A DNA stretch of 33,508 nucleotides from Kaiparowitsia implicata GSE-PSE-MK54-09C (GTDB lineage: Bacteria; Cyanobacteriota; Cyanobacteriia; Elainellales; Elainellaceae). How positions within the stretch are numbered: the stretch's first letter is position 1; every line of letters starts with the position of its first letter. Shown in pieces: positions 1,028 to 20,547 of this stretch. The position numbers were made by a program, and so were the translations under genes. The DNA lies in contig JAHHHI010000019.1 in assembly GCA_019359435.1 (NCBI GenBank), forward strand, positions 1 through 33,508, given 5' to 3'. The notes beneath the pieces were generated by a model, which did no database searches, had not been told where the DNA came from, and worked only from the letters and a program-made list of their open reading frames with translations.

Positions 1028-4000
1028 ATGAGCAGCTATCTTCTCTTTTCATTAACCCGACTGGGTTGGCTGGCGCAAGCGCCAACTCAGTCCCCAACGC
1101 TAAGTCCTACTGCGGATCCCGGAGTGGTTTTATTCTCAGGGCCGCAGTTTTTTATTGCGCTAGTTTCAGGTGTCTTGCTGGCATTTGCGATTCAGCTGTT
1201 GCTCACAAATTTTTCAGTGGCAGCGGGCATTTCGTTTGTCGGCACTTTGGGCAATTCGGATGACTCGTCGGATAGCAACAAGGATACCGACGGCGGCAGT
1301 ATGGGTTCGACCATTCGCAAGGTTGGCCTTGGCCTTGGCTTGTGGACGTTGATCACAGTAACGATCGCCCTTTTCCTCGCCTGCTACCTGGCGGTGCAGC
1401 TTAGCCTGCTAGCAGATTCTGGATTAGGAGCCATCGTTGGCTTGGTCATTTGGGCTGCTTACTTTTCTCTACTTGTATGGTTCAGCTCGAGCACTGTGGG
1501 GTCGCTCATCGGCTCTGTGGTCAATGCGGCAACGTCTGGGTTTCAGGCTGTGCTCGGTGCTGCCACGGCAGCGTTGGGTAGCCGTGCGGCCAAGCATCAG
1601 GCTGTATCTACGGCTGAGGCCATTGTAGAGGCGACGCGGAATCAATTGGGTTCTGCTATCGATCCACTGAGCATTCGGGAATCTATTGAAGATTATGTCG
1701 GGGGGTTGAACTTGCCCCAGTTGGATATGTCTCAGCTGCGGCGGGATTTTGAGTCGCTGCTGAATGATCCTGAATTTGTCGCCTTGGCAGACAACGATCG
1801 CTTGCACAATATTGATCGCCAAACGTTTATAGATTTGGTTAGCAGCCGCACGGATTTTTCTCGGCAAGAGGTGAACCGCGTTGCCAAACTGCTAGAAGGG
1901 GTGTGGCGGCAAACGCTCGGGCAGCGCAAGTCCCGCAATTCGATGGATGAACTGGTGAGCTATTTGCAAGCCACTCAGCCTGGGCAACTGCAAACCAAAG
2001 AGCTGAATGCCAAGCTAGATCGCCTTTTGGCAGAGCGATCGCAGCAATCAGGACAAGGCGGCTCATCGCAGGGGGGTGGATTTCCGCAGTCGCTGCAAGC
2101 TGGCATGAGCATGGCAATCAGCATGCTGCTGAGCCGCACTGACTTGTCTGACCTGAATCTCGAACAAATCCTAAATCGGCTGAAGCACGCACCCGATGAA
2201 CTGGCAAAGCAAACGAGCAAAGTGGCGGGGCAACTTCAGGGTGCTAGAGAGCCCTACAGCCCGATTCGCCAAGATGTAGAGGACTACTTACTCAATAAGC
2301 CCTCTTGGCAGATGAATCCAAAAGCAATTGATCGAGAGTTTCGGGATTTGCTCTACGATCCGTCGGCTGATCCGGGTGCGATCGCCCAACAGCTGTCGCA
2401 GATCAACCGCGCTTACTTTGCAGACGTTCTATCGTCGCGGGGGCTGTTTACTCAAGCCAAAATTAATAGACTGGCAGACTATTTCAATACCGTTCGCAAA
2501 GATGTCTTGGATAGCGCATTAACTGCGAAGGAGCTAGAAAAGTCTACGGATGTGCAGCGTCGGGTTGAGATCTATCTAACCGCCACGCCCAAAGAGCAAC
2601 TCCATGCCAGCTCAGAGCTTCCTGGATTTCGAGCCATCCTAGCGGATGAAGAAGCCAACTACGAGACTCTCAGCACGCGGCTATCGGCCTACAACCGCAC
2701 CCTGCTGCTGGCTATCTTGACGCGCCGTAACGATATGACACCGGCAGAAGCTGAGCCCATTCTGAACAACCTAGAAACAACGCGCGATCGCGTGCTGTTC
2801 GATGCAAAGTCAGTTGATGAGCAAGCTCGCCAAAAGCTGACAGAATTCGAGCAAAAGCTAGAATCCTACCTTGTGCAGACTGGCAGATCAGAGCTAAACC
2901 CTGAGGGGATCAAGCGAGATATGCAGGTGCTGCTTAACGACCCGCAGTTGGGGCTAGAAGCGATCCGCTATCGGGCGTCGCAGTTTGATCGCGATACCTT
3001 TGTGCAGTTGCTGAGTCAGCGGAATGATATTAATGCTGAAGACGCCGAGCACATTATGGATCAAGTGGAATCCAATTGGTATAGCTTCACCCATGCGCCT
3101 AGCATTGTCGCAACTGTGGTCAAAGAGCGGTATGACGAGACCCTGTCTTCACTAGCTGATTATCTGCGTCAAACCCACGTAGATGCCCTCGACCCCGATG
3201 GCATTCAGCGCGACTTGACGACACTGTTCAAAGACCCACAAGAAGGAGCGATCGCCCTTCAGCATCGGCTATCGCAAATTGACCGGGAGACCCTGGTGCA
3301 GTTGTTAAGCCAGCGGCAAGACTTGAGCGAAGAGCAAGTAAACCGCACCATTGACCAAGTGCAAACGGCGATTCAGCAAATTGTGCGGGCACCGCGCCGG
3401 TTTGCCTTGCGTACTCAACAGCAAGTGATGGACTTTGAGCACAGCGTCGAGGACTATCTGCGCAATACCGAAAAAGAGGAGCTGAACCCAGACGGCATCA
3501 AGCGTGACTTAAACCTCTTAATGCAGTCGCCTAAGCTAGGACTGCGCTCCTTGGGCGATCGCCTCTCCCACTTTGACCGGTCTACTCTAGTCGCATTGCT
3601 ATCGCAACGCGATGACATGAGCCCCGAAGATGTGGAGCGCACAGTACAGCAAATCGAAGCCACCCGTGACCAGATTTTGGCCCAGTTGCGGCAGGTTCAA
3701 TACCGGATTCAGGCCGTGGTTGACCGCATCTTTGGCCGCATTCGGGACTACCTCAACTCGCTCGATCGCCCAGAACTCAACTACGATGGCATTCGTCGAG
3801 ACGTACGGACGCTGTTTAATGACCCTCAAGCCGGGTTCGAGGCGCTTCGCCATCGGCTAAGCGAGTTCGATCGCGAGACCCTCGTCGCCATCCTCAGCTC
3901 TAGGGATGATATTTCTGAAGCCGATGTGAATCGAATTATCGATCAAGTAGAATCGGCTCGAATCAACGTCTTGCAGCGGGCTGAGCGCATTCAAACTGAA

Positions 4001-4153
4001 GCCCAGCGTCGCCTAGAAGAGGTAAAAGAGCAAACCCAACGGCAAGTCGAAGAAACGCGAAAGGCATCCGCAGCAGCTGCCTGGTGGCTGTTCCTCACAG
4101 CTCTCTCATCAGCAGCAGCCGCTGCAGGTGCAGGCGCCCTAGCCGCAGGCTAA
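1028..4153 (+). CDS. Large membrane protein with about eight tandem ~80-residue helical repeats
   Basis: The protein is 1041 residues. The N-terminus has hydrophobic segments at about residues 36-58, 98-125, 130-152 and 157-180, and the last 30 residues form another Ala-rich hydrophobic segment after an E/Q/R-rich coiled-coil-like stretch. Between them lie about seven clear and one degenerate repeats. Their consensus is 'YL...ELNPdGI+RDl..L.nDP..G...L..RLs.fDR.TLv.lLSqR.D.s...v.+i.dqvE'. The four C-terminal copies are most alike; the second copy is degraded around a Gly/Ser/Gln-rich linker. Similar proteins occur in other cyanobacteria as hypothetical membrane proteins, as far as I recall. 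The function is unknown. The topology suggests a soluble helical array anchored at both ends, perhaps a scaffold. The ATG at 1028 precedes the first hydrophobic segment; no strong ribosome binding site is seen. Confidence 0.9.
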   Translation: MSSYLLFSLTRLGWLAQAPTQSPTLSPTADPGVVLFSGPQFFIALVSGVLLAFAIQLLLTNFSVAAGISFVGTLGNSDDSSDSNKDTDGGSMGSTIRKVGLGLGLWTLITVTIALFLACYLAVQLSLLADSGLGAIVGLVIWAAYFSLLVWFSSSTVGSLIGSVVNAATSGFQAVLGAATAALGSRAAKHQAVSTAEAIVEATRNQLGSAIDPLSIRESIEDYVGGLNLPQLDMSQLRRDFESLLNDPEFVALADNDRLHNIDRQTFIDLVSSRTDFSRQEVNRVAKLLEGVWRQTLGQRKSRNSMDELVSYLQATQPGQLQTKELNAKLDRLLAERSQQSGQGGSSQGGGFPQSLQAGMSMAISMLLSRTDLSDLNLEQILNRLKHAPDELAKQTSKVAGQLQGAREPYSPIRQDVEDYLLNKPSWQMNPKAIDREFRDLLYDPSADPGAIAQQLSQINRAYFADVLSSRGLFTQAKINRLADYFNTVRKDVLDSALTAKELEKSTDVQRRVEIYLTATPKEQLHASSELPGFRAILADEEANYETLSTRLSAYNRTLLLAILTRRNDMTPAEAEPILNNLETTRDRVLFDAKSVDEQARQKLTEFEQKLESYLVQTGRSELNPEGIKRDMQVLLNDPQLGLEAIRYRASQFDRDTFVQLLSQRNDINAEDAEHIMDQVESNWYSFTHAPSIVATVVKERYDETLSSLADYLRQTHVDALDPDGIQRDLTTLFKDPQEGAIALQHRLSQIDRETLVQLLSQRQDLSEEQVNRTIDQVQTAIQQIVRAPRRFALRTQQQVMDFEHSVEDYLRNTEKEELNPDGIKRDLNLLMQSPKLGLRSLGDRLSHFDRSTLVALLSQRDDMSPEDVERTVQQIEATRDQILAQLRQVQYRIQAVVDRIFGRIRDYLNSLDRPELNYDGIRRDVRTLFNDPQAGFEALRHRLSEFDRETLVAILSSRDDISEADVNRIIDQVESARINVLQRAERIQTEAQRRLEEVKEQTQRQVEETRKASAAAAWWLFLTALSSAAAAAGAGALAAG

Positions 4154-6666: not shown

Positions 6667-6922
6667 TTAGACTTCAAATAGAGATGTCAACCGGATTGAA
6701 GTACGCTTGAGGCACACCCAGGGCGCACCTTCTCTAGGGTAATGAATTGCCGCAGATGGGAGGGCAAAACCCTTAAGGCAAAGTTGTTGCAGCCTCTATT
6801 GCTAACAGTATCAAAGCTTTAGAAACAGTTAACAATAGAAGCTACATAGTCTCACCTTTAGCTATCAGTGTTACGATTGCCACAGAAAGAAACAAGATGA
6901 AAAAATAAGGACGAACCGCTTC

Positions 6923-9073
6923 ATGCTCGAAGAAATGGATAAGTTGATATCCTTTGATGGTAGGGATATTCGACTGAAAGTTGGGCTGCTAGCACCCCAG
7001 GCAGGGGGTTCGGTGCTGGTGGAGTCCGGAAACACCTCCGTATTTGTGACGGCAACGCGCTCTACAGGCCGAGAAGGCATCGATTTCCTGCCATTGTTAG
7101 TAGATTACGAAGAGCGAATGTATGCTGCAGGGCGCATCCCCGGCGGCTTTTTGCGTCGAGAAGGACGGCCTCCCGAAAAGGCAACGCTAACTTGTCGGTT
7201 GATCGACCGACCGATGCGGCCCCTATTCCCCAGTTGGCTGCGCGATGATTTGCAGGTGGTAGCCACCACTATGTCGATGGATGAGAAAGTGCCGCCCGAT
7301 GTGCTGGCAGTCACTGGGGCATCGATCGCCACGCTCCTGGCAAAAATTCCGTTTAATGGCCCCATGGCGGCGGTGCGCGTCGGTCTGATTGGCGATGACT
7401 TTATTATTAACCCTACGTATGAAGAGATCGAACTGGGAGATCTCGACTTGGTAGTGGCCGGGTCACCCGATGGCGTGATCATGGTAGAAGCTGGGGCCAA
7501 CCAACTGCCCGAGCAAGACATGATCGAAGCGATCGATTTTGGTTATGAAGCCGTGCGCGATCTGATTCAAGCCCAGTTGGATTTGATTAAAGAGCTGGGT
7601 ATTGAGCTGGTTAAAGAAGAGCCTCCCGCCGTAGATTCTACGTTAGAAGACTTTATCACCGAGCGCTCTAAGGCTGAGATTAAGGCAATTCTGGCGCATT
7701 TTGAATATACGAAGCCCGAGCGAGATGTGGCACTGGATGCGGTAAAAGATACCGTTGCAAGTGCGATCGCCCAACTTCCTGAAGAAGATCCCGTGCGGCT
7801 GGCGTCCGAATCTAGTCCCAAAACCCTATCGAATGTATTTAAAAGCGTCACCAAAAAGCTGATGCGCCGTCAGATCGTAGAAGATGGCGTGCGAGTAGAC
7901 GGGCGTAAACTCGACGAAGTGCGTAAGATCACCTGCCGTACTGGTGTGTTGCCCTCGCGAGTGCATGGCAGTGGCCTATTTCAGCGAGAGCTAACTCAGG
8001 TGCTTTCTGTGGTAACGCTGGGCACCCCCGGCGATGCTCAGGCAATGGATGACCTGCATCCAGATGAGCAAAAGCGCTACCTGCACCATTACAACTTCCC
8101 GCCCTACTCGGTGGGTGAAACGCGACCCATGCGATCGCCCGGTCGGCGCGAAATTGGGCATGGTGCCCTGGCAGAACGTGCCCTGATTCCCGTGTTGCCG
8201 TCCAAAGAAGACTTTCCCTATGTTATCCGCGTGGTGTCAGAGGTGTTGTCCTCCAACGGCTCCACCTCTATGGGGTCGGTCTGCGGCTCAACCCTGTCAT
8301 TGATGGATGCAGGCGTGCCCATCAAAAAGCCCGTGAGCGGCGCGGCCATGGGGTTGATCAAAGAAGACGACGAAATTCGCATCTTGACTGACATTCAGGG
8401 GATCGAAGACTTCTTAGGCGACATGGACTTTAAAGTGGCAGGTACCGATACGGGTATTACCGCGCTGCAAATGGACATGAAAATCTCTGGGTTGCCCCTG
8501 TCTGTGATCGCTGACGCCATCAAACAGGCCAAATCGGCGCGGCTGCACATCTTAGAAAAGATGACCGCAACCATCGACAAGCCTCGCGAAGAGATGTCGC
8601 CCTACGCGCCACGTCTGTTGACCATTAAGATCGATCCTGACCTGATTGGCCTGATCATTGGCCCAGGTGGCAAAACCATTAAGGGCATCACTGAGCAGAC
8701 GGGTGCCAAAGTGGATATCGACGATGACGGCACGGTGACGATTTCAGCCATCGAAGGCGAGAAAGCTCAGCAGGCCCGCGGCATTATCGAAGGCATGACT
8801 CGCAAGATCAGCGCAGGCGATGTGTATGTCGGCACAGTGACGCGAATCATCCCCATTGGCGCATTTGTGGAATTTTTGCCCGGTAAAGAAGGCATGATCC
8901 ACATCTCGCAACTGGCGGACTATCGCGTGGGCAAAGTGGAAGACGAGGTGGCTCTCGGTGACGAGGTTGTGGTGAAGGTGCGTGAGGTAGACCAGCGCAA
9001 CCGCATTAATCTAACGCGTCTAGGCATTCATCCTGATGAGGCTGCTGCTGCCCGCGACGCCGCAGGGATCTAG
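6923..9073 (+). CDS. pnp: Polyribonucleotide nucleotidyltransferase (PNPase)
   Basis: The 716-residue protein has the standard PNPase order: a first RNase PH-like domain (about 10-145) with RSTGREG and RRE.R.sE-like motifs, a helical domain, a second RNase PH domain (about 330-470), a KH domain with IIGPGGK near residue 580, and an S1 domain (about 631-702) with VYVGTV and GMIHISQL. It degrades RNA 3' to 5' phosphorolytically and in cyanobacteria can also add heteropolymeric tails. The ATG at 6923 gives [17 protein letters not shown]; the internal ATG at 6935 is an alternative start. The 5' region of about 250 bp is long enough for autoregulation, though no specific structure is evident. Confidence 0.97.
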
Positions 9074-9416: not shown

Positions 9417-9959
9417 TTAGCGCGATCGCAGCACCTGCTTCCAAGCTTCATTATGTTCGAGCAGCCAGTAATGCACCAGTTGGCGTGGCGTCCAATGGAG
9501 GCGGTTGGTGGCAAAGGCAACCATGCTAGTGGGCTGTTGAGGTGCATCGCAGAGTACCAGCAGCCGTACTCGCCCCAGCCCCAGAATGGTAACGCAGCGG
9601 GTGTGGCTCCAGACGAGATGGCAGGCGATCGCCATCGCGCGATAGTCGTGCGGGGCGATCGCCTCAATATAAGCGTTCAACGTCATGCATTCAGTGGTGC
9701 ATTGGGGCACAACCGCTGAGTTTACCGACGATTGCCAATGCTGTCGTTCTACGAGCCAATCAGCATGCAGCATGCCAATCCAGTCTTGCTGAGCCTCAAT
9801 CAGATCATCCACACGGTCTGGGGATAGGGCTTGGGTGTCGAGAAGCTGAATGTTGAGTGCAGTGAGATCGGCCAGTTGAGGTAGATTGAACTGGGGCGAT
9901 CGCACGGGTGAGGGGCGATCGCCCAGTCGGGTCGATGCAGCAGCAGGGGCGACAGGCAT
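9417..9959 (-). CDS. Transposase-derived protein, C-terminal DDE-domain remnant or domesticated gene
   Basis: The protein is 180 residues. Residues about 35-70 (ALNIQLLDTQALS... DWIGMLHADW) resemble the 'D.WY......I.....DWI..LK' region of IS701/IS4-like DDE transposases. Residues about 110-175 (DYRAMAI, CVTILGLGRVRLLV, ATNRLHWTPRQLVHYWL) resemble their 'G+VRLV...TNR.DWS..+I...Y' block. The first catalytic Asp region is absent, and the frame stops where the final catalytic helix would continue, so it cannot be an active transposase. Unlike a simple wreck, it has a good ribosome binding site: AAGGAG at 9973-9968, 8 nt before the ATG. The similarity is from recalled family patterns; the role is unknown. 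Confidence 0.65.
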   Translation of the reverse strand: MPVAPAAASTRLGDRPSPVRSPQFNLPQLADLTALNIQLLDTQALSPDRVDDLIEAQQDWIGMLHADWLVERQHWQSSVNSAVVPQCTTECMTLNAYIEAIAPHDYRAMAIACHLVWSHTRCVTILGLGRVRLLVLCDAPQQPTSMVAFATNRLHWTPRQLVHYWLLEHNEAWKQVLRSR

Positions 9960-10426
9960 AGAACAGACTCCTTAAAGGGCAGAGGTGGCGCAATCGGCGA
10001 AACAGCCACAGAATGGATTTCTGGCATATTGGCTAATCTCTGTTAAGGTGTGAAAAATTCTGGCTTAACGTTACGCCGCCAGTGTAGACAAGTTGCCGCC
10101 TCTTGCCGGGCGACAAGCCCATCCGTAATGGCAGGCCTTTGATGCCCCGATCATCACCCGGTTCAGCCTTTCCTGAGACAGCAGTTCGCTCGTGATGCGC
10201 GGGTGATGGCATAGCTTCAGTTACACGCGAGAAATAAAAACAAAGAAGAAAAAAGGCGTTGCCGAATACGAGTATGAATTCAAGCATCAATGTTTTTCGT
10301 AGAAGCGCACGGCACGGCCCTGCACAGGTTTATGCCTCAATTCAGCAACGCCGCAAAAAAAATGAGGGCGATCGCGTAACATCTCCTTCGCTTTGTGCAC
10401 ATTTCTACAACTGGAGGACAAAACAC
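9960..10426. other. Intergenic region with a possible structured segment
   Basis: No convincing gene is seen; an 85-codon minus frame (10033-10290) and a 67-codon plus frame have no family features. A nested stem is possible: 10153-10160 pairs with 10200-10207 (8 bp), and 10142-10146 pairs with 10208-10212. An A-rich tract follows at about 10228-10255. This may hold the promoter and leader of the downstream two-gene operon. Confidence 0.35.
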
Positions 10427-10486: not shown

Positions 10487-10975
10487 ATGGACTGTCCAGC
10501 CAATGATTTAACGAATGACTTGATTGAAACGCTCTCTTGCACCAGCTACACCTACTTCGACACCCTGGCGGACTATTGCCGATTATCTGTGCAGGCCGAT
10601 CTGTCAGAACGCGACGTAGAACAGTTGGATCACATCTATGCGCAGGCCGAAGGAGATCCCAATCTCAATTTCTTCATCCACGAGCTCGATGCCATGCTGG
10701 CAGAGCGGCTAGGGCTGCTGGATGCAGCTCAAATTGAGCAATACAGCAACCAGCAAGCTTGGCTGCGTGAGCATCTCGAAGGAGTGCCCTACGACAAAGC
10801 CTATCGCGAAGAAGTGCAGATGCTGCTGAGCAAGCGTGGGTTTTATAGTGGCCCCATTGACGGGGTGTTGGGCGATCGCTCCCGCATTGCCGTTCAGAAA
10901 TTTCAAGCCACCCATGCCCTAAAAGTTGATGGCGTTCCGGGACGCGTCACGTTCACTGCCCTCCAAACTCGGTGA
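10487..10975 (+). CDS. Protein with a C-terminal peptidoglycan-binding (PG_binding_1) domain
   Basis: The protein is 162 residues. The last 55 form a PG_binding_1-type three-helix domain with the hallmarks 'VQ.LL...GFYSGPIDGVLGDRSR.AV..FQ....L.VDG.pG..T..AL'. The N-terminal 100 residues form an acidic helical domain that I do not recognise. There is no signal peptide or membrane segment, which is unusual for a wall-binding module and suggests a cytoplasmic role or a different use of the fold. The start has AGAGGT a few bases upstream. It is followed after only 6 bp by the sigma-like gene, so the two are very probably co-transcribed and functionally linked. Confidence 0.88.
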   Translation: MDCPANDLTNDLIETLSCTSYTYFDTLADYCRLSVQADLSERDVEQLDHIYAQAEGDPNLNFFIHELDAMLAERLGLLDAAQIEQYSNQQAWLREHLEGVPYDKAYREEVQMLLSKRGFYSGPIDGVLGDRSRIAVQKFQATHALKVDGVPGRVTFTALQTR

Positions 10976-10981
10976 TAAGTT

Positions 10982-11782
10982 ATGCCCCACAACTCAAAGC
11001 CCCTCTTTGATGCCAATAGCCTAGACAGCCACTCGTTTCGCACCTTTGTGCAAGAGACGCTAGAGCACTACCGCCTGAGCAGCACCTACAGCATGGAGGA
11101 TGTGATTAGCGCGGTATATGAGCAGAGCTTGACTGGCATCGAAGCTGATCAGATCCACACGATTCAATTTGCATGGCTCAAGACCGTTAGCCTGGATGTA
11201 ATCAAGCAGCTCAGCCGCCGCAAATTTGATGTAGCCGTGCAAGCGCTGTTTGATGGCCAAAATCCTGATGCGCGCTCCTTTTTTGCCAGTATTACCAATC
11301 GCCTGCGACAATTTCGACTGTTGGACACCTACGAGGTGCGGGAGATTATTGCCGAAGCCTATGCTCGCGGTGTGAAATACATCGACGCTGGGCACGGCAT
11401 CGACATCCCCGTGGCATGGTTACGGCGCACCTGCTTCAACGTCATCTTTGAGTTTCGCCGCAAGCAAGACAAGCTTGAGCATCCCCGCATCAATGACGAA
11501 CCCGTTGACGATGCGTTTTCTGAGCTCATTTTTGACGAAGATATTCGTGCCATTCGGATTGCGCTCACCCAACTCAGCGACGAAGAACGCACTATTTTGT
11601 GTAACCGCGTGCTAAAGCGTCAAGCCTGGCAAGAAATTGGCCAAGCGATGTCTACGCAAGATGGTACGGCCCTTTCTGCCAACGCAGCGCGACAGCGAGG
11701 GTATCGAGTGCTACAAAAGCTGCGCCACCTCTATGACGAAGTGCGCGATTCAATCCAGACAGAGCAGGCTGATTCAGCCTAG
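10982..11782 (+). CDS. Sigma-70-like protein with a duplicated N-terminal module
   Basis: The protein is 266 residues. Residues 19-81 and 100-162 align without gaps over 63 positions with 17 identities (RL..TY, I, Y, I.A, AWL, VI, R), so the module has been duplicated. Each resembles the region-2-like part of cyanobacterial ECF-type sigma proteins. Residues 190-252 look like sigma region 4: 'AL.qLs.eer..l..rvl....w.EIg.am.....s..AaRqRgyRvLqkLR'. An RNA polymerase sigma factor or a regulator that mimics one is inferred. It is the second gene of an operon with the PG-binding-domain protein. It could instead have lost promoter-opening activity, since the typical acidic core-binding segment is not obvious. 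Confidence 0.85.
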   Translation: MPHNSKPLFDANSLDSHSFRTFVQETLEHYRLSSTYSMEDVISAVYEQSLTGIEADQIHTIQFAWLKTVSLDVIKQLSRRKFDVAVQALFDGQNPDARSFFASITNRLRQFRLLDTYEVREIIAEAYARGVKYIDAGHGIDIPVAWLRRTCFNVIFEFRRKQDKLEHPRINDEPVDDAFSELIFDEDIRAIRIALTQLSDEERTILCNRVLKRQAWQEIGQAMSTQDGTALSANAARQRGYRVLQKLRHLYDEVRDSIQTEQADSA

Positions 11783-11948
11783 CTGTTCCTGGCCTTCTAT
11801 GGCTCTCAGCAGACGAGATGCGGGTGTCGATCTGATGTAAGCCGATTGGGGGGTGTGAGCGTTGCCCGCACCCCCCAATCTTGAGATCGCATCAGTCGAG
11901 TCCGCTAGGGCAATGATGATTACGGAACCCGAACTGTGTGAAATGCCT

Positions 11949-14495: not shown

Positions 14496-17400
14496 CTAAT
14501 TCATCTCTAGACTGGGGCAGCTTGGGGCAGGCAGCCTTAGGTAGCGGGTGCATTCGGCCAACGTCAACTGTCGTTGACTGCGATCGCGCGCTAGTTTCAG
14601 CAACATCTCCCAGGTGGCGGCCCATAGATAAAGGTGGCCCTGATGGGTTAGAGCCGACACATACTGACCATCGGGGCTAAAGAAGACGTGCTTGATGGCC
14701 GTGGCCGTGGTTGAGTGCGGGCGCAACAGCGCCATCTCGCTCCCCGTTTGGGCACTCCATAAGCGCACCGTCCCATCTGTGCTGGCTGTTACGATAGATT
14801 GCCCGTCTGGGCTAAAGGCCACATCCATGACCGCGCCTTGGTGCCCCTTTAGCGAAACCTGCAAGACCCCTGTCTCTATGTCAGCAATGTGACCCTCCCC
14901 CGTGCTGAGCATGGCCACTAATTTCGTGCCAGTAGCGTTGAATCCCACACTGGTGACGGCTTCACCCAAAGGAATTTTTATGCGCTGCCGTCCAGATCCT
15001 CGCTCCCACACCATGACTGAGCCATCAGCACTGGCGGTGGCAATCATGTGACCATCCGGGCTGAACTGAGCATTGCGAATGCTGTCATCGTGCCCCCGCA
15101 ACTCTCCCACCTGTTTCCCGGTGTCTACATCCCATAACCGGCCTATGGCGTCTTCTCCCACTACTAAGAGCTGGCGGCTATCAGGACTAAAGATAAGAGG
15201 CTCTGGGGATGTTATCGTGAGGCCCGACAGAGACGAGGAGGAGTTGCCCTCTGATTGGAGGGGAAGGCGATGCTGCACGCGATAGGTTCCGTCTGGCTGC
15301 TGCAGCTGCAGCACTAGCTCTTGGTCTAGGGTGGCGATCGCCAACCACTGACTATCGTCGCTGATTGCGAGGCTTTGCACCTGTGCCATATCCCACTCTG
15401 CAGTGGGGAAGTTCGCCATAGCTAGCGTTGGGGTAGAAAACTCGATTGCTGACGTTCCGTTTGCAGGTTCGTCTACTGATTGAGACGCACCCTGGTCTTC
15501 TTCTGCAGCGATGACGGGCGATCGCCACTCTGTAGCGGCATTTGTCGCCCCATCTGCCATGGAGACGAGCCACGTTCTAAGCTGTAGCCATAGATCCTCA
15601 GGATGAAACGAACGTCGCCCTGATTCTCCTAAATAGCCGGTGTGCAGAGCGGTCGAATCGAGAGCGTCTGGTGCTCGAGCTGTTGACTTGGGCAATTGGT
15701 CTGCAAGGATTGTCCAGCGTTTAACCTGCCCATCACTGCTCAGCGTCAGCAGGCGATTAGCTGCGGGATTGAGTTCTGTCGCGATTGTCGAGGCGGTGGA
15801 GGCAGGCAGTGGGGGGCGATCGCTCCCCAGTGGAACGCCCTCCCTGAGCGGGGTTAACGCATCTGTGGTGAGAAAGCCAGCCCACTGAATCGGCCCATTG
15901 GCCAAGCGCACGGTTGGCAACTCACCACCGGGATAATTGGCCCAAAGCTGCACCCCACCCGACTGGTTTGCCGTCATGACGTAGGCATTATCGGGACTGA
16001 AGGCCACTAGCGTGACATGCTGTGAATCGTGAAACTGCGCGATGGTTTGCCCAGAGCGGATATCCCACAGCGTAATCTGGCTAGAGCTGGGAGACAGGCG
16101 AACCACTGATGCAGCTTGGTTGTCTGCGCCTAGGGCGATCGCACTGGGTCGTGCGGTAAAGCCGGGAGTCGATTTCGTCGATTCGCTCACGAGGGTTTGC
16201 GTCTCTAGCTCCCACACCTTTTGCTGCCCCTCAGCATCTAGAGTCAGCACAAGCTGATCATCGGGGCTGAGGTGAACCTGCATCAACGCGCCAGGAGACG
16301 TGGCGATGGATGGCTGTGCTCCGCTAGGGTTGGGCCGTTTAGAGTCCCCTGCCTCGTCTGCTTCGTCCCTAATCGGCAGAGATTCAAAGCGGGTGCGATG
16401 ATTGAGCACATGGGCTGGGTCTCCCGTTTGAGCATCCCACAGGCGCACCCGGCCATCGTCAGCGGCGACGACCACCCACTGCCCCCCCGGACTATAAAAG
16501 GCCTGACGAATTGCTGCGGGCGATCGCAGGGTCACGGTTGGCTCTAATGGAGTGGGTTCCCCCTCAGAACGCATCGACCCTAGCGGTACCACATCCACCG
16601 TGGCATTGGCATGCCCCAGCAGCAGCGCCTGACCATCGGGACTGAGGCTAAATTGCTGAATTGGAGCAGGCGCGACCCGTTGCCCCCGCAGTTGGCCGGT
16701 GCTGGGTTGCCATGCTCGCACCGACTGCCCCCCAGCGGCCACCAGCCATTGCCCGTCTGAGCTATAGGCTAGATGGGTTGCCGCCTCAGGTAAGCTTAGG
16801 CGAAATTGCACAATGCCACTCTTCACATCCCACACGTTAACGGTGGATGTTCCCTGGGCGATCGCCGCCACCTGCTCGCCACTGGGGCTAAAGGCAATGC
16901 CAATAATTTTAGGAGGTGTTGCAGGTTCGTCTGCTCCGGGCTTCTCTCGCCAAGGGAGCTGTTGGCTCGGCGACATCTGCTGCGCCACCCGAATCACCTG
17001 GTTCATTCCCGTCCAGAGGGCTAGGGTGCCATCAGCGCTACCCGTTGCGAGGTAATATCCATCGGCGCTAAAGACCGCTTGAGTGATGGCGGCTGTGTGC
17101 CCCTTCAGTTGCACCTGAAGCCCCAATCGCTGCAATGCAGCCCGCAGGCTCGACTGGGCTTCGTAGGTATGTCCGCCTTGCTCAGCCGCTAAGCGGCTAA
17201 TCAACAGCGCTGCCATAGAGTCGGCCTGTGGCTCTTGCAGAATGGATTGGGCGATCGCTGCCCGCTCTCGTGAGGTTGCATGGCTGATCTGCAAGTCTTT
17301 CTCGGCATACGTTTGCACGGCTAGATGATATTGACCTAGGGCGATCGCCGTTGCTGCCGTCATGACCGAGGGAATCCCAAACCGCAGTAAATTAAGGCGT

Positions 17401-19586
17401 TGGCGATCGCGCTGCAGTCGTGCCCAACTCATCTGCACATAGTGGGTTGCCACCGCTGACAACTCTTGTGGATAGCGGCACATCACCTCACGCGCCTCCG
17501 TCAACCGGTTACCCCGGAGTAAATGCCCGGCATCCATGGGCTTGCCGCTATCTAACCATTCATGAGCCACCTGCTCGACTCGTCGCACCTGCCGCAGCAT
17601 GGTTCGGCTTTCGTCTAACCAAGTTCGCAGGAGCGGCCAGTGGCGAATCAATGCTTCGTGAGCAATATCTAGCGTTTCTTTACCATCAATCGAGGTCACT
17701 TCGTCACCACGAGTGCGATTGGTCACCACCAGTTTGGCCGCCACCAGTTTTTCTAGCGTGTCTTCTATCAAGGCAGGGGCAAAGGCCGTATTCATCAATT
17801 CTGACTTGGCTACCCGACGGCGCGTGTCATCCGAGCCGTCCCCCAACTGCGTCAGCGCCAGAAAAATCCGCTTTGCCATTTGCTGCTCCTCTGGGGGCAG
17901 CGCTTGCAGTAGAGCCGTGGCCCGAGTTTGCAGCGTTCCACGGACGCCCCCCAATTCGGTGTACGCATTGAGGGTCAGGGTTGAGGGTTGTCCGCTAGCC
18001 GAAATATCTCGGTGCTGCCACAGTTCAAGCAGTGCATATTGCAACAGCGGCAGTTCTCCCGGTGCTCCCATTACGTCTAATAAGATGGTGTAGACCAGAT
18101 TGGGTTCACACTTCAGCCCGACTTTGCGGGCAGGACGCACAATGGTGTTTTTGATTTGCTCGTAGCTAAGCGGCAGCAGAGGCATAATCTGCCGCTTCAG
18201 ATGACGGGCTAAGTTTTTATAACGAACGCAAGCGCTAAAGAAATCTGCCCGCAACCCGGCCACTACGCACAAGCTCGTATCTGGCGATTCCAGTGCAGCG
18301 ATGACGCAGGAGAGAAACTGCTGTCGCTCTTCTTCATCGTCGCAGAGGGAAAATAACTCTTCAAATTGATCGATCACGAGCACCATGCGAGGACGCTGGC
18401 GATCGCCCAGCCCTGACGTGATCGTGGTTTCGGGTGCGAGGGTGGCGCGAACCAGTTGCCCAAGCCCCAGCCGCCCATCTCGCAAGAAATGCTCGGCCCG
18501 ACGCAGTTGCTCCGCTCGCTCAATGTTGGGTAGGTGGGGATCGACAAAGGCCGACGCCAGACTGTGTAGGGGGTGCTCACCTGGTGTAATCAGCTTAAGC
18601 CGCCAGCGATCGCTCCCGGCAATCTGCTTACCCTGCCGCAGATGATGCATGAGCCCTGCGCGCAGCAGCGACGACTTGCCACTGCCCGACGCCCCCATCA
18701 GCGTCACAAACGACGACTGGGCCACTTTCTCCACCAGCTTAGCCGTCATCTCTTCTCGCCCAAAGAAGTACTCAGCGTGGGCTTCTTCAAAAGATTCCAG
18801 CCCGCGATAGGGGCAGCAGTCATCCACCCGGCGGGGCAGTTTGGGCAACACGGGTTCGGCACGCTTGCCGCACCGGGTCAGCACAATTTCTCCACCTGAG
18901 CTTTCAAATAGCGGCTGCTGGAGTTCTCCTTGGAGCGCCTGACTCACCTGAGCCGTGAGCGCCAACCCGGTTACCCGGTCTAGCCCACTTTGACGGGCAT
19001 CCAGCCCATCCACCAGCGCTTGGGTAAACACACTATAGGTGCCTTCCAACGACTCGTAGGCTGCTTCGTATTCTCGAGAGGCCGCCATAAAGAGCCGATC
19101 AGTGCCCGCTCGCGCTCCCGGGTCGGCTTCCAAAAAGTTGAGCAGTTCACCGCTGTGGCAGCAGTCTAAAATCACCACGCGCTGACGCACAGGGCTTTCT
19201 TGCAGCAGTCGCCGCAGCCAAAACAGCGATAGGCCGTAGAATCCTACGTCTGGCTGCGTGTCGCTAACGGCTAGGTATCCTTCATTAATGCCAGCATCTC
19301 GCTGAATCCCATGACCCGAGAAGTAAAACAGGGCCGTTTGAGGGATGGTGTTTCCCCGAGGTTTGAACAGGTTGATCAGGGCGGTTTCTAAATCTCGCAG
19401 GCTGACCAGGGTTGAGTGCCCGACTTGGGGATGACCTGACTGAATCACCTCTGGCAGACGCTGAACGCGAAAGTCACCCTGCTTCTGTAACAGGTGGGCG
19501 ATCGCCTCTGCATCTCTGGCAGGAGCCTGTAACCCCGACAGATATCGGTAGCTATTAATTCCAACCACGAGTGCATCCCGAGACAT
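14496..19586 (-). CDS. Caspase-like protease / nSTAND ATPase / WD40 protein
   Basis: The protein is 1696 residues from the ATG at 19586, which GGAGAAGG precedes closely; a TTG five codons upstream is in frame but less likely. A peptidase C14 caspase domain fills residues 1-235, with catalytic His in YFSGHG (His92) and Cys in ILDCCHSGE (Cys143). A novel-STAND NTPase follows: CPYRGLESF, Walker A GASGSGKS (298-305), Walker B MVLVIDQFEEL (about 401-411), and the winged-helix signature IAHEALIRHWPLLRTWL (about 641-657). A hydrophobic segment lies at 737-755. From about 828 to the end are WD40 blades, such as 'FSPDGQ.IVTASTDGTVRLW', several of them degenerate. The family consists of signal-triggered proteases or death effectors, with WD40 as sensor and STAND as oligomerising switch. 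All key catalytic residues are present. The trigger is unknown. Confidence 0.93.
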   Translation of the reverse strand: MSRDALVVGINSYRYLSGLQAPARDAEAIAHLLQKQGDFRVQRLPEVIQSGHPQVGHSTLVSLRDLETALINLFKPRGNTIPQTALFYFSGHGIQRDAGINEGYLAVSDTQPDVGFYGLSLFWLRRLLQESPVRQRVVILDCCHSGELLNFLEADPGARAGTDRLFMAASREYEAAYESLEGTYSVFTQALVDGLDARQSGLDRVTGLALTAQVSQALQGELQQPLFESSGGEIVLTRCGKRAEPVLPKLPRRVDDCCPYRGLESFEEAHAEYFFGREEMTAKLVEKVAQSSFVTLMGASGSGKSSLLRAGLMHHLRQGKQIAGSDRWRLKLITPGEHPLHSLASAFVDPHLPNIERAEQLRRAEHFLRDGRLGLGQLVRATLAPETTITSGLGDRQRPRMVLVIDQFEELFSLCDDEEERQQFLSCVIAALESPDTSLCVVAGLRADFFSACVRYKNLARHLKRQIMPLLPLSYEQIKNTIVRPARKVGLKCEPNLVYTILLDVMGAPGELPLLQYALLELWQHRDISASGQPSTLTLNAYTELGGVRGTLQTRATALLQALPPEEQQMAKRIFLALTQLGDGSDDTRRRVAKSELMNTAFAPALIEDTLEKLVAAKLVVTNRTRGDEVTSIDGKETLDIAHEALIRHWPLLRTWLDESRTMLRQVRRVEQVAHEWLDSGKPMDAGHLLRGNRLTEAREVMCRYPQELSAVATHYVQMSWARLQRDRQRLNLLRFGIPSVMTAATAIALGQYHLAVQTYAEKDLQISHATSRERAAIAQSILQEPQADSMAALLISRLAAEQGGHTYEAQSSLRAALQRLGLQVQLKGHTAAITQAVFSADGYYLATGSADGTLALWTGMNQVIRVAQQMSPSQQLPWREKPGADEPATPPKIIGIAFSPSGEQVAAIAQGTSTVNVWDVKSGIVQFRLSLPEAATHLAYSSDGQWLVAAGGQSVRAWQPSTGQLRGQRVAPAPIQQFSLSPDGQALLLGHANATVDVVPLGSMRSEGEPTPLEPTVTLRSPAAIRQAFYSPGGQWVVVAADDGRVRLWDAQTGDPAHVLNHRTRFESLPIRDEADEAGDSKRPNPSGAQPSIATSPGALMQVHLSPDDQLVLTLDAEGQQKVWELETQTLVSESTKSTPGFTARPSAIALGADNQAASVVRLSPSSSQITLWDIRSGQTIAQFHDSQHVTLVAFSPDNAYVMTANQSGGVQLWANYPGGELPTVRLANGPIQWAGFLTTDALTPLREGVPLGSDRPPLPASTASTIATELNPAANRLLTLSSDGQVKRWTILADQLPKSTARAPDALDSTALHTGYLGESGRRSFHPEDLWLQLRTWLVSMADGATNAATEWRSPVIAAEEDQGASQSVDEPANGTSAIEFSTPTLAMANFPTAEWDMAQVQSLAISDDSQWLAIATLDQELVLQLQQPDGTYRVQHRLPLQSEGNSSSSLSGLTITSPEPLIFSPDSRQLLVVGEDAIGRLWDVDTGKQVGELRGHDDSIRNAQFSPDGHMIATASADGSVMVWERGSGRQRIKIPLGEAVTSVGFNATGTKLVAMLSTGEGHIADIETGVLQVSLKGHQGAVMDVAFSPDGQSIVTASTDGTVRLWSAQTGSEMALLRPHSTTATAIKHVFFSPDGQYVSALTHQGHLYLWAATWEMLLKLARDRSQRQLTLAECTRYLRLPAPSCPSLEMN

Positions 19587-20547
19587 TATCCTTCTCCTCA
19601 AACAGTCGTAAACAGGTCGTAGCTAATGAATGTCACGATTGACAAAAGGCTGGGAAATCCGGCAAAAGGCCAGAGCAATGTTGCTAGCTGCTTAGCGCAG
19701 GATTGATGGAAAACGATGAATTGACGATGAATTAACTTGGATGTAAACCTCAGCAATATGGCTGAATAAATCAGCACAATGTACTAGAAGGTCATAAAAA
19801 TAAAATCTTCGTTAAGTTGAACATAGCGGAATCATCATGCTATGTAAAAGGGGGTGTTAGCCCACATTAGAGCTATAACAAATACGCTTTTTGTTGAAGT
19901 GTAAAATGCACCTTTACATTTATAAAAATGGCATGAAGAGTTGCTGAACCCCTTATGAATCAAATTATTCAGGAATTTTATTCAACTACTTAGAATCATG
20001 TGTATTATTTGATTTATTAGGCTTTCTCAGTAAAAGTACGGAATATATTGAGCCGTTACTCTTGAGGATTTCACTATTTTTTTGGCCGTTCAAATTGGCT
20101 TGGCCTAATCTCTCTGAATAAAAGCCGTATGGGATTGCTCAAGCGGCGATCAGCCTTAAGCCGTTGAAGAGCGATCGCCCTTGATCGGGGGCACTTTCCA
20201 CACTATTGCCATGACGGGAGGGTCATTGTTGCATGTTGCATTGATCACGCTAGTGGTGAATCGATGCCATTATGCCAGCATGAACGCTAGATGAAGGGAT
20301 CGTGCAACGCCTGCCCTTCATCTGTCGAATTGCATAGACATACGATGATCCACTCAGTCTTAAGGCATAGATTCCTCGCTTGCGCTAAAACTTAAAAGAG
20401 GACAGTTTTTTTGGCCTGTACTGAAGTTGTATAGAAGGTGCAAACGGCAAGTGTTGTTAGATTGGCGCGAGTGCTGGGTTGGGTTGGCGATCGCCCACAG
20501 CAGCGCTTAAAGATGCCCAGGATCTTGCTGCATCAGTTGCGCCTGCG
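19587..20547. other. AT-richer gene-free region upstream of the caspase gene
   Basis: About 960 bp hold no convincing gene on either strand. Noted features are a dyad TGTAAA-7-TTTACA at 19900-19918, which could be an operator, and two nearby CAAAAGGC copies close to 19638-19672. A 9-bp stem GATGAAGGG/CCCTTCATC (20290-20298/20314-20322) could terminate the minus-strand small genes. Base composition from about 19700 to 20110 is clearly more AT-rich than the neighbouring genes. Confidence 0.4.

Follow-up and report, generated by a model that had tools for sequence, protein, structure and literature searches.

Here, we describe a sigma-like protein that carries two region-2-like modules ahead of one region 4. 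The protein, P0001 (266 aa; 10982..11782, + strand), is encoded in the window, that is, the whole 33,508-nucleotide stretch analysed from the cyanobacterium Kaiparowitsia implicata GSE-PSE-MK54-09C, and it is recognized as a two-module ECF-like sigma factor from its open reading frame, a family-model match and an internal repeat that lies far above chance. The first module (residues 1-81; 10982..11224, +) appears from repeat, tree, profile and residues to be a degenerate copy of sigma region 2, the second (residues 82-166; 11225..11479, +) is by alignment and residue conservation a region 2 with the family's Glu125, Trp146 and Asn153, and a region-4 helix-turn-helix follows at about residues 185-255 (11534..11746, +), as indicated by a weak Pfam match, the predicted model and structural matches. 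We think it slightly better than an even bet that P0001 is an ECF-type sigma factor in which the second module and region 4 do the work, that it forms a local, positively autoregulated switch, and that the first module serves as a regulatory domain in cis.

The original prediction aligned residues 19-81 of P0001 with residues 100-162, without gaps and with 17 of 63 positions identical. This alignment is exact, and the repeat is larger than was given there, pairing residues 8-81 with 89-162, always 81 positions apart. Aligned to itself without gaps, P0001 has a best BLOSUM62 score of 104, a value reached by none of 300 letter shuffles (shuffle maximum 42), which supports the earlier view that a tandem region-2-like module ahead of a single region 4 is a non-standard sigma layout. 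Two of three full-length relatives also carry the repeat (0/200 shuffles each as high), and the third, L018, the most divergent copy, shows it weakly (1/200). Six one-module relatives and one fusion protein served as controls without the repeat, and between 25 and 182 of 200 shuffles scored as high in these. No direct DNA repeat was found within 10900-11800, and hence the duplication of the module is not recent.

The sigma70-ECF model of NCBIfam (TIGR02937) matches residues 87-249 of P0001 with E = 1.7e-7 and 31 bits; because the curated cut-off is 42.9, we name the protein ECF-like. At E <= 0.01 the same model matches 15 of 17 family members, with a best E of 4.2e-16. Pfam's Sigma70_r4 covers residues 194-249 at a score under its cut-off, a Pfam region-4 cut-off is exceeded by two of the three full-length, two-module relatives, and just two of ten family members scanned reach a Pfam sigma cut-off, so that surveys relying on those cut-offs would miss many. 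Used as a profile, 13 one-module relatives match solved ECF sigma factors, best SigW (5wuq, E = 5.9e-6). PDB matches of the single P0001 sequence stay at chance level (best E = 0.094). An Ourmia virus capsid match over the region-4 stretch (PF25652, E = 5.8e-4) is under its own cut-off, and the phage sigma family phrog_1740 gives E = 8.5e-7 but covers residues 89-260 only; one scan of viral contigs returned no relatives of P0001, and PADLOC returned no defence matches for the sigma gene, its partner or two copies of the neighbouring gene X.

The predicted model of P0001, built from five sequences, has a mean pLDDT of 79.6 and a pTM of 0.50. It places helices at residues 14-29, 38-50, 55-60 and 63-90 in the first set, at 97-110, 119-135 and 143-166 in the second, and at 185-196, 200-211, 216-222 and 233-265 in the region-4 part. 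The helix order is alike in both modules, which are connected by one long helix, and approximately 20 residues separate the end of the second module (helix end 166) from region 4 (next helix start 185); ECF sigma factors consist of region 2 and region 4 only, with a linker of under 50 residues (PMC8103513, in excerpt). Sigma factors lead the Foldseek list for the whole model, with no match below E = 0.001. Folded alone, the first module gives a low-confidence model (pLDDT 64.5) whose best Z, 4.5, is to unrelated non-sigma chains, and VIA-align of it gave nothing useful, a result of little weight because the starting model is weak.

The first half of P0001 had been taken for a relative of sigma region 2, and profile searches bear this out: in a profile-profile comparison, four first modules match the 13 one-module relatives with a probability of 98.9 and E = 2.9e-17, which places this half in the sigma family. 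Scanned alone, the first module of P0001 has a weak match to one NCBIfam sigma model (TIGR02952, E = 0.011), whereas those of the three two-module relatives, scanned likewise, have none. Of 386 genomes drawn from the phylum, 10 match P0001 at E <= 0.001, and among the 12 matches listed none but the window's own starts before residue 71; a stricter profile search of 292 genomes gave five. Both one- and two-module forms exist, as a survey of the family shows. Nine of its 36 genomes have sigma matches at E <= 0.01, and four of these are two-module, namely the window's own genome (G000), Phormidium tenue FACHB-886 (G401, locus L046), G410 and Oculatella sp. LEGE 06141 (G412, locus L045; Oculatellaceae in NCBI's taxonomy). 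The repeat is thus common to four genera of one family, and in G401 and G410 one- and two-module forms lie on the same contig. Intact one-module relatives are 190-223 aa long and share 28-47% identity with P0001 over roughly residues 75-258.

In a tree of region-2 modules, for which 41 residues ahead of a likely later start were cut from one relative, the modules separate by position: the four first modules cluster together with support of 93/98, on the longer branches, and the four second modules do so with 89/84. Mean pairwise identity among the four two-module proteins is 38% for the first module (range of pairs 25-53%), 63% for the second and 48% for region 4, and 12 positions after Met1 are invariant in all four first modules. 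Tree and profile fit a single event in which the family duplicated its own region 2, with the first copy changing faster thereafter. The family normally has one region 2 and one region 4, and by sequence the two-module form looks like a duplication inside a cyanobacterial ECF-like family. Three further loci hold other sigma-related arrangements. At L039 a 131-aa open reading frame with a region-2-like part only (7797-8192, -) lies upstream of a complete one-module sigma gene (6884-7477) and is perhaps a decayed duplicate; at L014, which is the same place as on the Nostoc sp. UHCC 0926 plasmid NZ_CP117766.1, a 373-aa protein annotated as PIN domain-containing (841-1962, +) has a C-terminal part related to the P0001 sigma family; and at L008 a sigma-like part stands behind a repeat-rich N-terminal part.

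The two modules of P0001 differ in the residues that they keep. A glutamate at position 125 is found in all 17 genuine modules (four second modules and 13 one-module proteins) and in none of the four first modules, which have A, K, K and V. It aligns with the glutamate of the QE of SigW, and on this alignment Glu125 is a putative contact to core polymerase. Asparagine at position 153 occurs in 16 of the 17 genuine modules (one H) and again in 0/4 first modules, where D, E, E and E stand instead. Core residues A64, L66, K67 and I74 are kept in all four first modules, and the Trp seven residues before the Asn position (Trp65) and the basic residues 79-80 in three of the four. The second module of P0001 retains Glu125, Trp146 and Asn153, with the Trp/Asn spacing of W81 and N88 of Mycobacterium tuberculosis SigH. 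In SigH these two residues form the -10 pocket and melting wedge, and changing N88 to alanine harms transcription, although other polar residues occupy this place in some ECF factors; the -10 specificity loop of ECF factors lies before the Trp (PMC6411747, in excerpt), and the corresponding stretch of the first module is not conserved. This is the pattern of a pseudo-domain, in which the fold is probably kept and the contacts are probably gone. That both Glu and Asn are lost speaks against the first module being another functional unit for binding DNA or core.

The gene upstream of P0001 encodes a 162-aa partner, P0002 (10487..10975, +), whose stop lies six bases ahead of the sigma gene and which has an N-terminal domain of approximately 95 aa followed by PG_binding_1. 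From gene layout and precedent we regard it as a candidate anti-sigma factor. Of 16 loci examined, with one module or with two, 14 have a partner-domain gene, whose orientation varies; it is missing at L038 (contig end) and L043, and at L037 the partner is 4 kb off. The partners of the two-module sigmas form one group (94/90), and their branching order is that of the second modules, with the window branching off first, G410 next and Oculatella and Phormidium last. Strong partner-domain matches (E <= 2e-26) occur in nine of the 36 family genomes, eight of which are among the nine with a sigma match; G399 has the partner only, and G404 has the sigma only, at a contig end. The partner profile A5 matches all 36 genomes, mostly through the common PG_binding part, and this tally is therefore uninformative on the partner domain. 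Pfam matches of P0002 and four further partner genes include no anti-sigma family, and the four two-module partners have no hydrophobic segment resembling a membrane span. A co-transcribed anti-sigma factor, autoregulation and AAC boxes are hallmarks of ECF sigma factors (PMC8103513, in excerpt), and region 2 and region 4 are bound by anti-sigma factors (PMC7406223, in excerpt). In Phormidium, a 521-aa protein with two partner-domain copies and one hydrophobic segment near residue 340 (L030 6198-7763, -) sits after a third sigma gene of the family; with this anti-sigma-like layout it is a candidate membrane-bound anti-sigma factor.

Gene X (180 aa; 9417..9959, -) is divergent from the partner-sigma pair and was recognized from its neighbourhood and a search of the family genomes. 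It is present in 4 of the 36, exactly the four two-module ones, and adjoins the sigma-partner pair in all of them, a conserved gene trio. Across 292 genomes of the phylum, gene X was found in its own genome only, with one other match, a long open reading frame of 446 aa in G185, part of which resembles part of gene X (probability 87.5, E = 3.6e-6). This frame reads like a DDE transposase and has no Pfam match at E <= 0.01.

Two promoter-like signals lie between gene X and the partner gene. The first, GTAACA-N16-CACA (10376..10401, +), points toward the partner-sigma operon and is a dyad conserved at all four two-module loci, 88-118 bases before the partner start. It was found by a scan of all 5+4-letter dyads and then shuffle-tested on the same four regions between gene X and the partner gene, in which 0/400 dinucleotide shuffles yield as many shared dyads. 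The second, GTAAC-N17-CACA (10049..10074, -), points toward gene X and, in the form GTAAC-N17-CAC, is likewise conserved at 4/4 loci, 54-143 bases before the start of gene X. The gene X-side pattern was shortened to CAC after the sequences had been viewed, so the joint shuffle frequency of 1.2e-10, a product, is optimistic. In the whole 33.5-kb window, GTAAC-N17-CAC occurs at these two places only. The base after CAC is A in seven of the eight two-module sites (CACA in three of four on the gene X side), where the GTAAC of all eight sites and the CACA of the partner side follow from the search pattern itself.

The one-module relatives have a related signal. Before the dyad scan, a signal of the GTAAC type was not found at most one-module genes. 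Within the 300 bases upstream of a sigma or partner gene, 11 of 25 regions contain GTCAC-N17-CAC followed by T, the top of a dyad scan on these same regions (best unrelated dyads, 5). GT[CA]AC-N17-CACT is found in 12 of 27 one-module upstream regions, a count that leaves out the 7-base upstream region of L038, and 2000 mononucleotide shuffles gave a mean of 0.04 regions and never more than one. At L037, the sigma and partner genes are 4 kb apart and both carry the one-module signal. Spacing is the same at one- and two-module loci, and, as read from these upstream regions, the family has a common promoter-like signal with fixed spacing. Across the four two-module genomes, GTAACA-N16-CACA occurs at 21 places, six of them in the four intergenic regions, versus 31 for the reversed control; TGTCACA-N16-CACT occurs at 38 places in 16 genomes versus 23 for its reversed control, with 10 of the 38 at sigma loci and 28 left. 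Outside the sigma loci there is no clear excess of either motif over its control and no wider regulon is seen, and the switch therefore looks local. Small genes beside one-module sigma genes carry GT[CA]AC-N17-CACT 38-66 bases before their start and are possible further members of local regulons. Three encode a CPxC motif, one weakly zinc-ribbon-like (L033 4573-4845, L034 6454-6726 and L035 5286-5588), and two are NfeD-like (L030 10400-10675 and L031 6298-6549).

P0001 most probably is a true sigma factor, given that its second module and its region 4 retain the sigma residues and that the ECF-like signals are conserved. These two parts would recruit core RNA polymerase to GTAAC-N17-CAC(A) promoters, and P0001 would in this way turn on its own operon, comprising the partner and sigma genes, together with the divergent gene X. 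GTAAC-N17-CAC stands before the operon in 4/4 loci; its -10-like box is not CGT, and by sequence it is promoter-like. P0002 may restrain P0001, and the first module, as a pseudo-region 2, may tune that restraint in cis. By analogy, its most likely form would be a docking surface or decoy for P0002, or an autoinhibitory cap. Sequence and conserved signals argue for the working step, whereas gene layout and precedent (PMC7406223 and the PhyR of PMC8103513, both in excerpt) point to the restraint by P0002 and the role of the first module. A more specific idea, which we entertain tentatively, is that P0001 has a sigma mimic built into it: its first module would compete in cis for the partner against the working region 2. 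If true, the sigma factor would carry its own decoy and the threshold for release would be set within one chain.

The main rival is that the first module is an evolutionary leftover, tolerated and decaying, that contributes nothing. Its faster change (mean identity 38% versus 63%) makes a loss of function possible, and the lost Glu and Asn and the faint repeat of L018 point the same way. We nevertheless judge this unlikely, as all four genera preserve its reading frame and approximate length, 12 of its positions after Met1 do not vary, and unconstrained drift over such a distance should probably have left less than the pairwise identity of 25-53% that is seen. It is very improbable that the first module is instead a second working region 2 that binds core or DNA on its own, so that the protein could open promoters with either of two units or form a bivalent holoenzyme: although it belongs to the same family by profile (E = 2.9e-17), has the same helix order in the model and keeps Trp65 and the basic residues 79-80 in 3/4, the Glu of all 17 genuine modules is gone from 4/4, the Asn is acidic in 4/4 and the stretch in place of the ECF -10 specificity loop is not conserved. 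The signals also have the spacing of the one-module relatives, so that no second recognition element is needed.

Could P0001 as a whole imitate a sigma factor and so titrate an anti-sigma factor, while another sigma factor uses the promoters? The scores under the curated cut-offs of the sigma family models would agree with this, and PhyR of the Alphaproteobacteria, a response regulator with a sigma-like domain, offers a parallel (PMC8103513, in excerpt). Against it, residues conserved in the one-module relatives are retained in both the second module and region 4, and a search of the window's genome returned no further clear member of this sigma family (next matches E = 0.19 and 0.87), which leaves no obvious sigma factor of the same family for the promoters; we hold this reading to be highly unlikely. 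The original prediction had suggested that the protein might bind core polymerase or promoter DNA in another way, or act as a sigma mimic or an anti-regulator. The sigma residues, the ECF-like signals and the lost Glu and Asn make new binding and whole-protein mimicry less likely, and the first module alone may have a role as a mimic or as a regulator acting in cis.

Read as a sigma factor with a regulatory first module, P0001 resembles the ECF (group IV) sigma factors, such as Bacillus subtilis SigW, M. tuberculosis SigL and SigH, and Escherichia coli RpoE, in its region 2, region 4 and short linker, and its locus resembles theirs in the AAC of the -35-like box, the adjacent partner gene and the signal before its own operon. 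It differs in the extra, degenerate N-terminal region 2 and in scoring below curated cut-offs. With the one-module cyanobacterial relatives, for example Nostoc plasmid genes annotated 'sigma-70 family RNA polymerase sigma factor', it shares the partner domain and the signal spacing, whereas these have a single region 2, a -35-like box that is mostly GTCAC rather than GTAAC, and CACT where the two-module loci mostly have CACA. PhyR/EcfG mimicry indicates how a non-sigma, sigma-like domain could bind an anti-sigma factor; PhyR acts in trans, whereas in P0001 the sigma-like domain and the sigma factor would share one chain, and Pfam finds no receiver domain in P0001. The sigma-like domain of PhyR, itself a response regulator, is N-terminal and has the correct ECF structure, and the -10 hallmark of ECF promoters is CGT, in contrast to the CAC(A) of the P0001 locus (both PMC8103513, in excerpt). 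In SigO-RsoA of B. subtilis, region 2 is a separable module, as in P0001, but it is split from region 4, each being carried by its own protein (PMC8103513, in excerpt), whereas P0001 has two copies of region 2 in one chain.

A layout of two region 2 and one region 4 is not described in the titles and opening lines of abstracts listed from the open-licence literature on duplicated or tandem sigma domains and on cyanobacterial, ECF and split sigma factors. A survey of cyanobacterial sigma70 factors allows that essential domains may occur in duplicate (Gevin et al. 2024, PMC11119718, in excerpt); according to the same excerpt it required Pfam trusted scores, and it probably would not catch P0001, whose one Pfam sigma match is below the cut-off. 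For non-canonical ECF factors, N-terminal extensions with membrane helices are mentioned, and a term search of the paper that describes them found no duplicated or second region 2 (PMC8999054). The comparison brings out a cyanobacterial ECF-like sigma family with a conserved partner and a recognizable promoter-like signal, and the two genomes that hold both one- and two-module forms offer a natural experiment, with controls, in the regulation of a sigma factor by a copy of its own domain.

Two other genes of the window deserve mention in their own right. A 1041-aa open reading frame (1028-4153, +) matches the bacterial DNA-binding protein family PF00216 (E = 4.7e-8), although none of its stretches is significant by itself, and it shows no further clear domain. 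A 1701-aa protein (14496-19601, -) combines a caspase domain (Peptidase_C14) with nSTAND1 and WD40, and may be a regulated protease that belongs to a conflict system.
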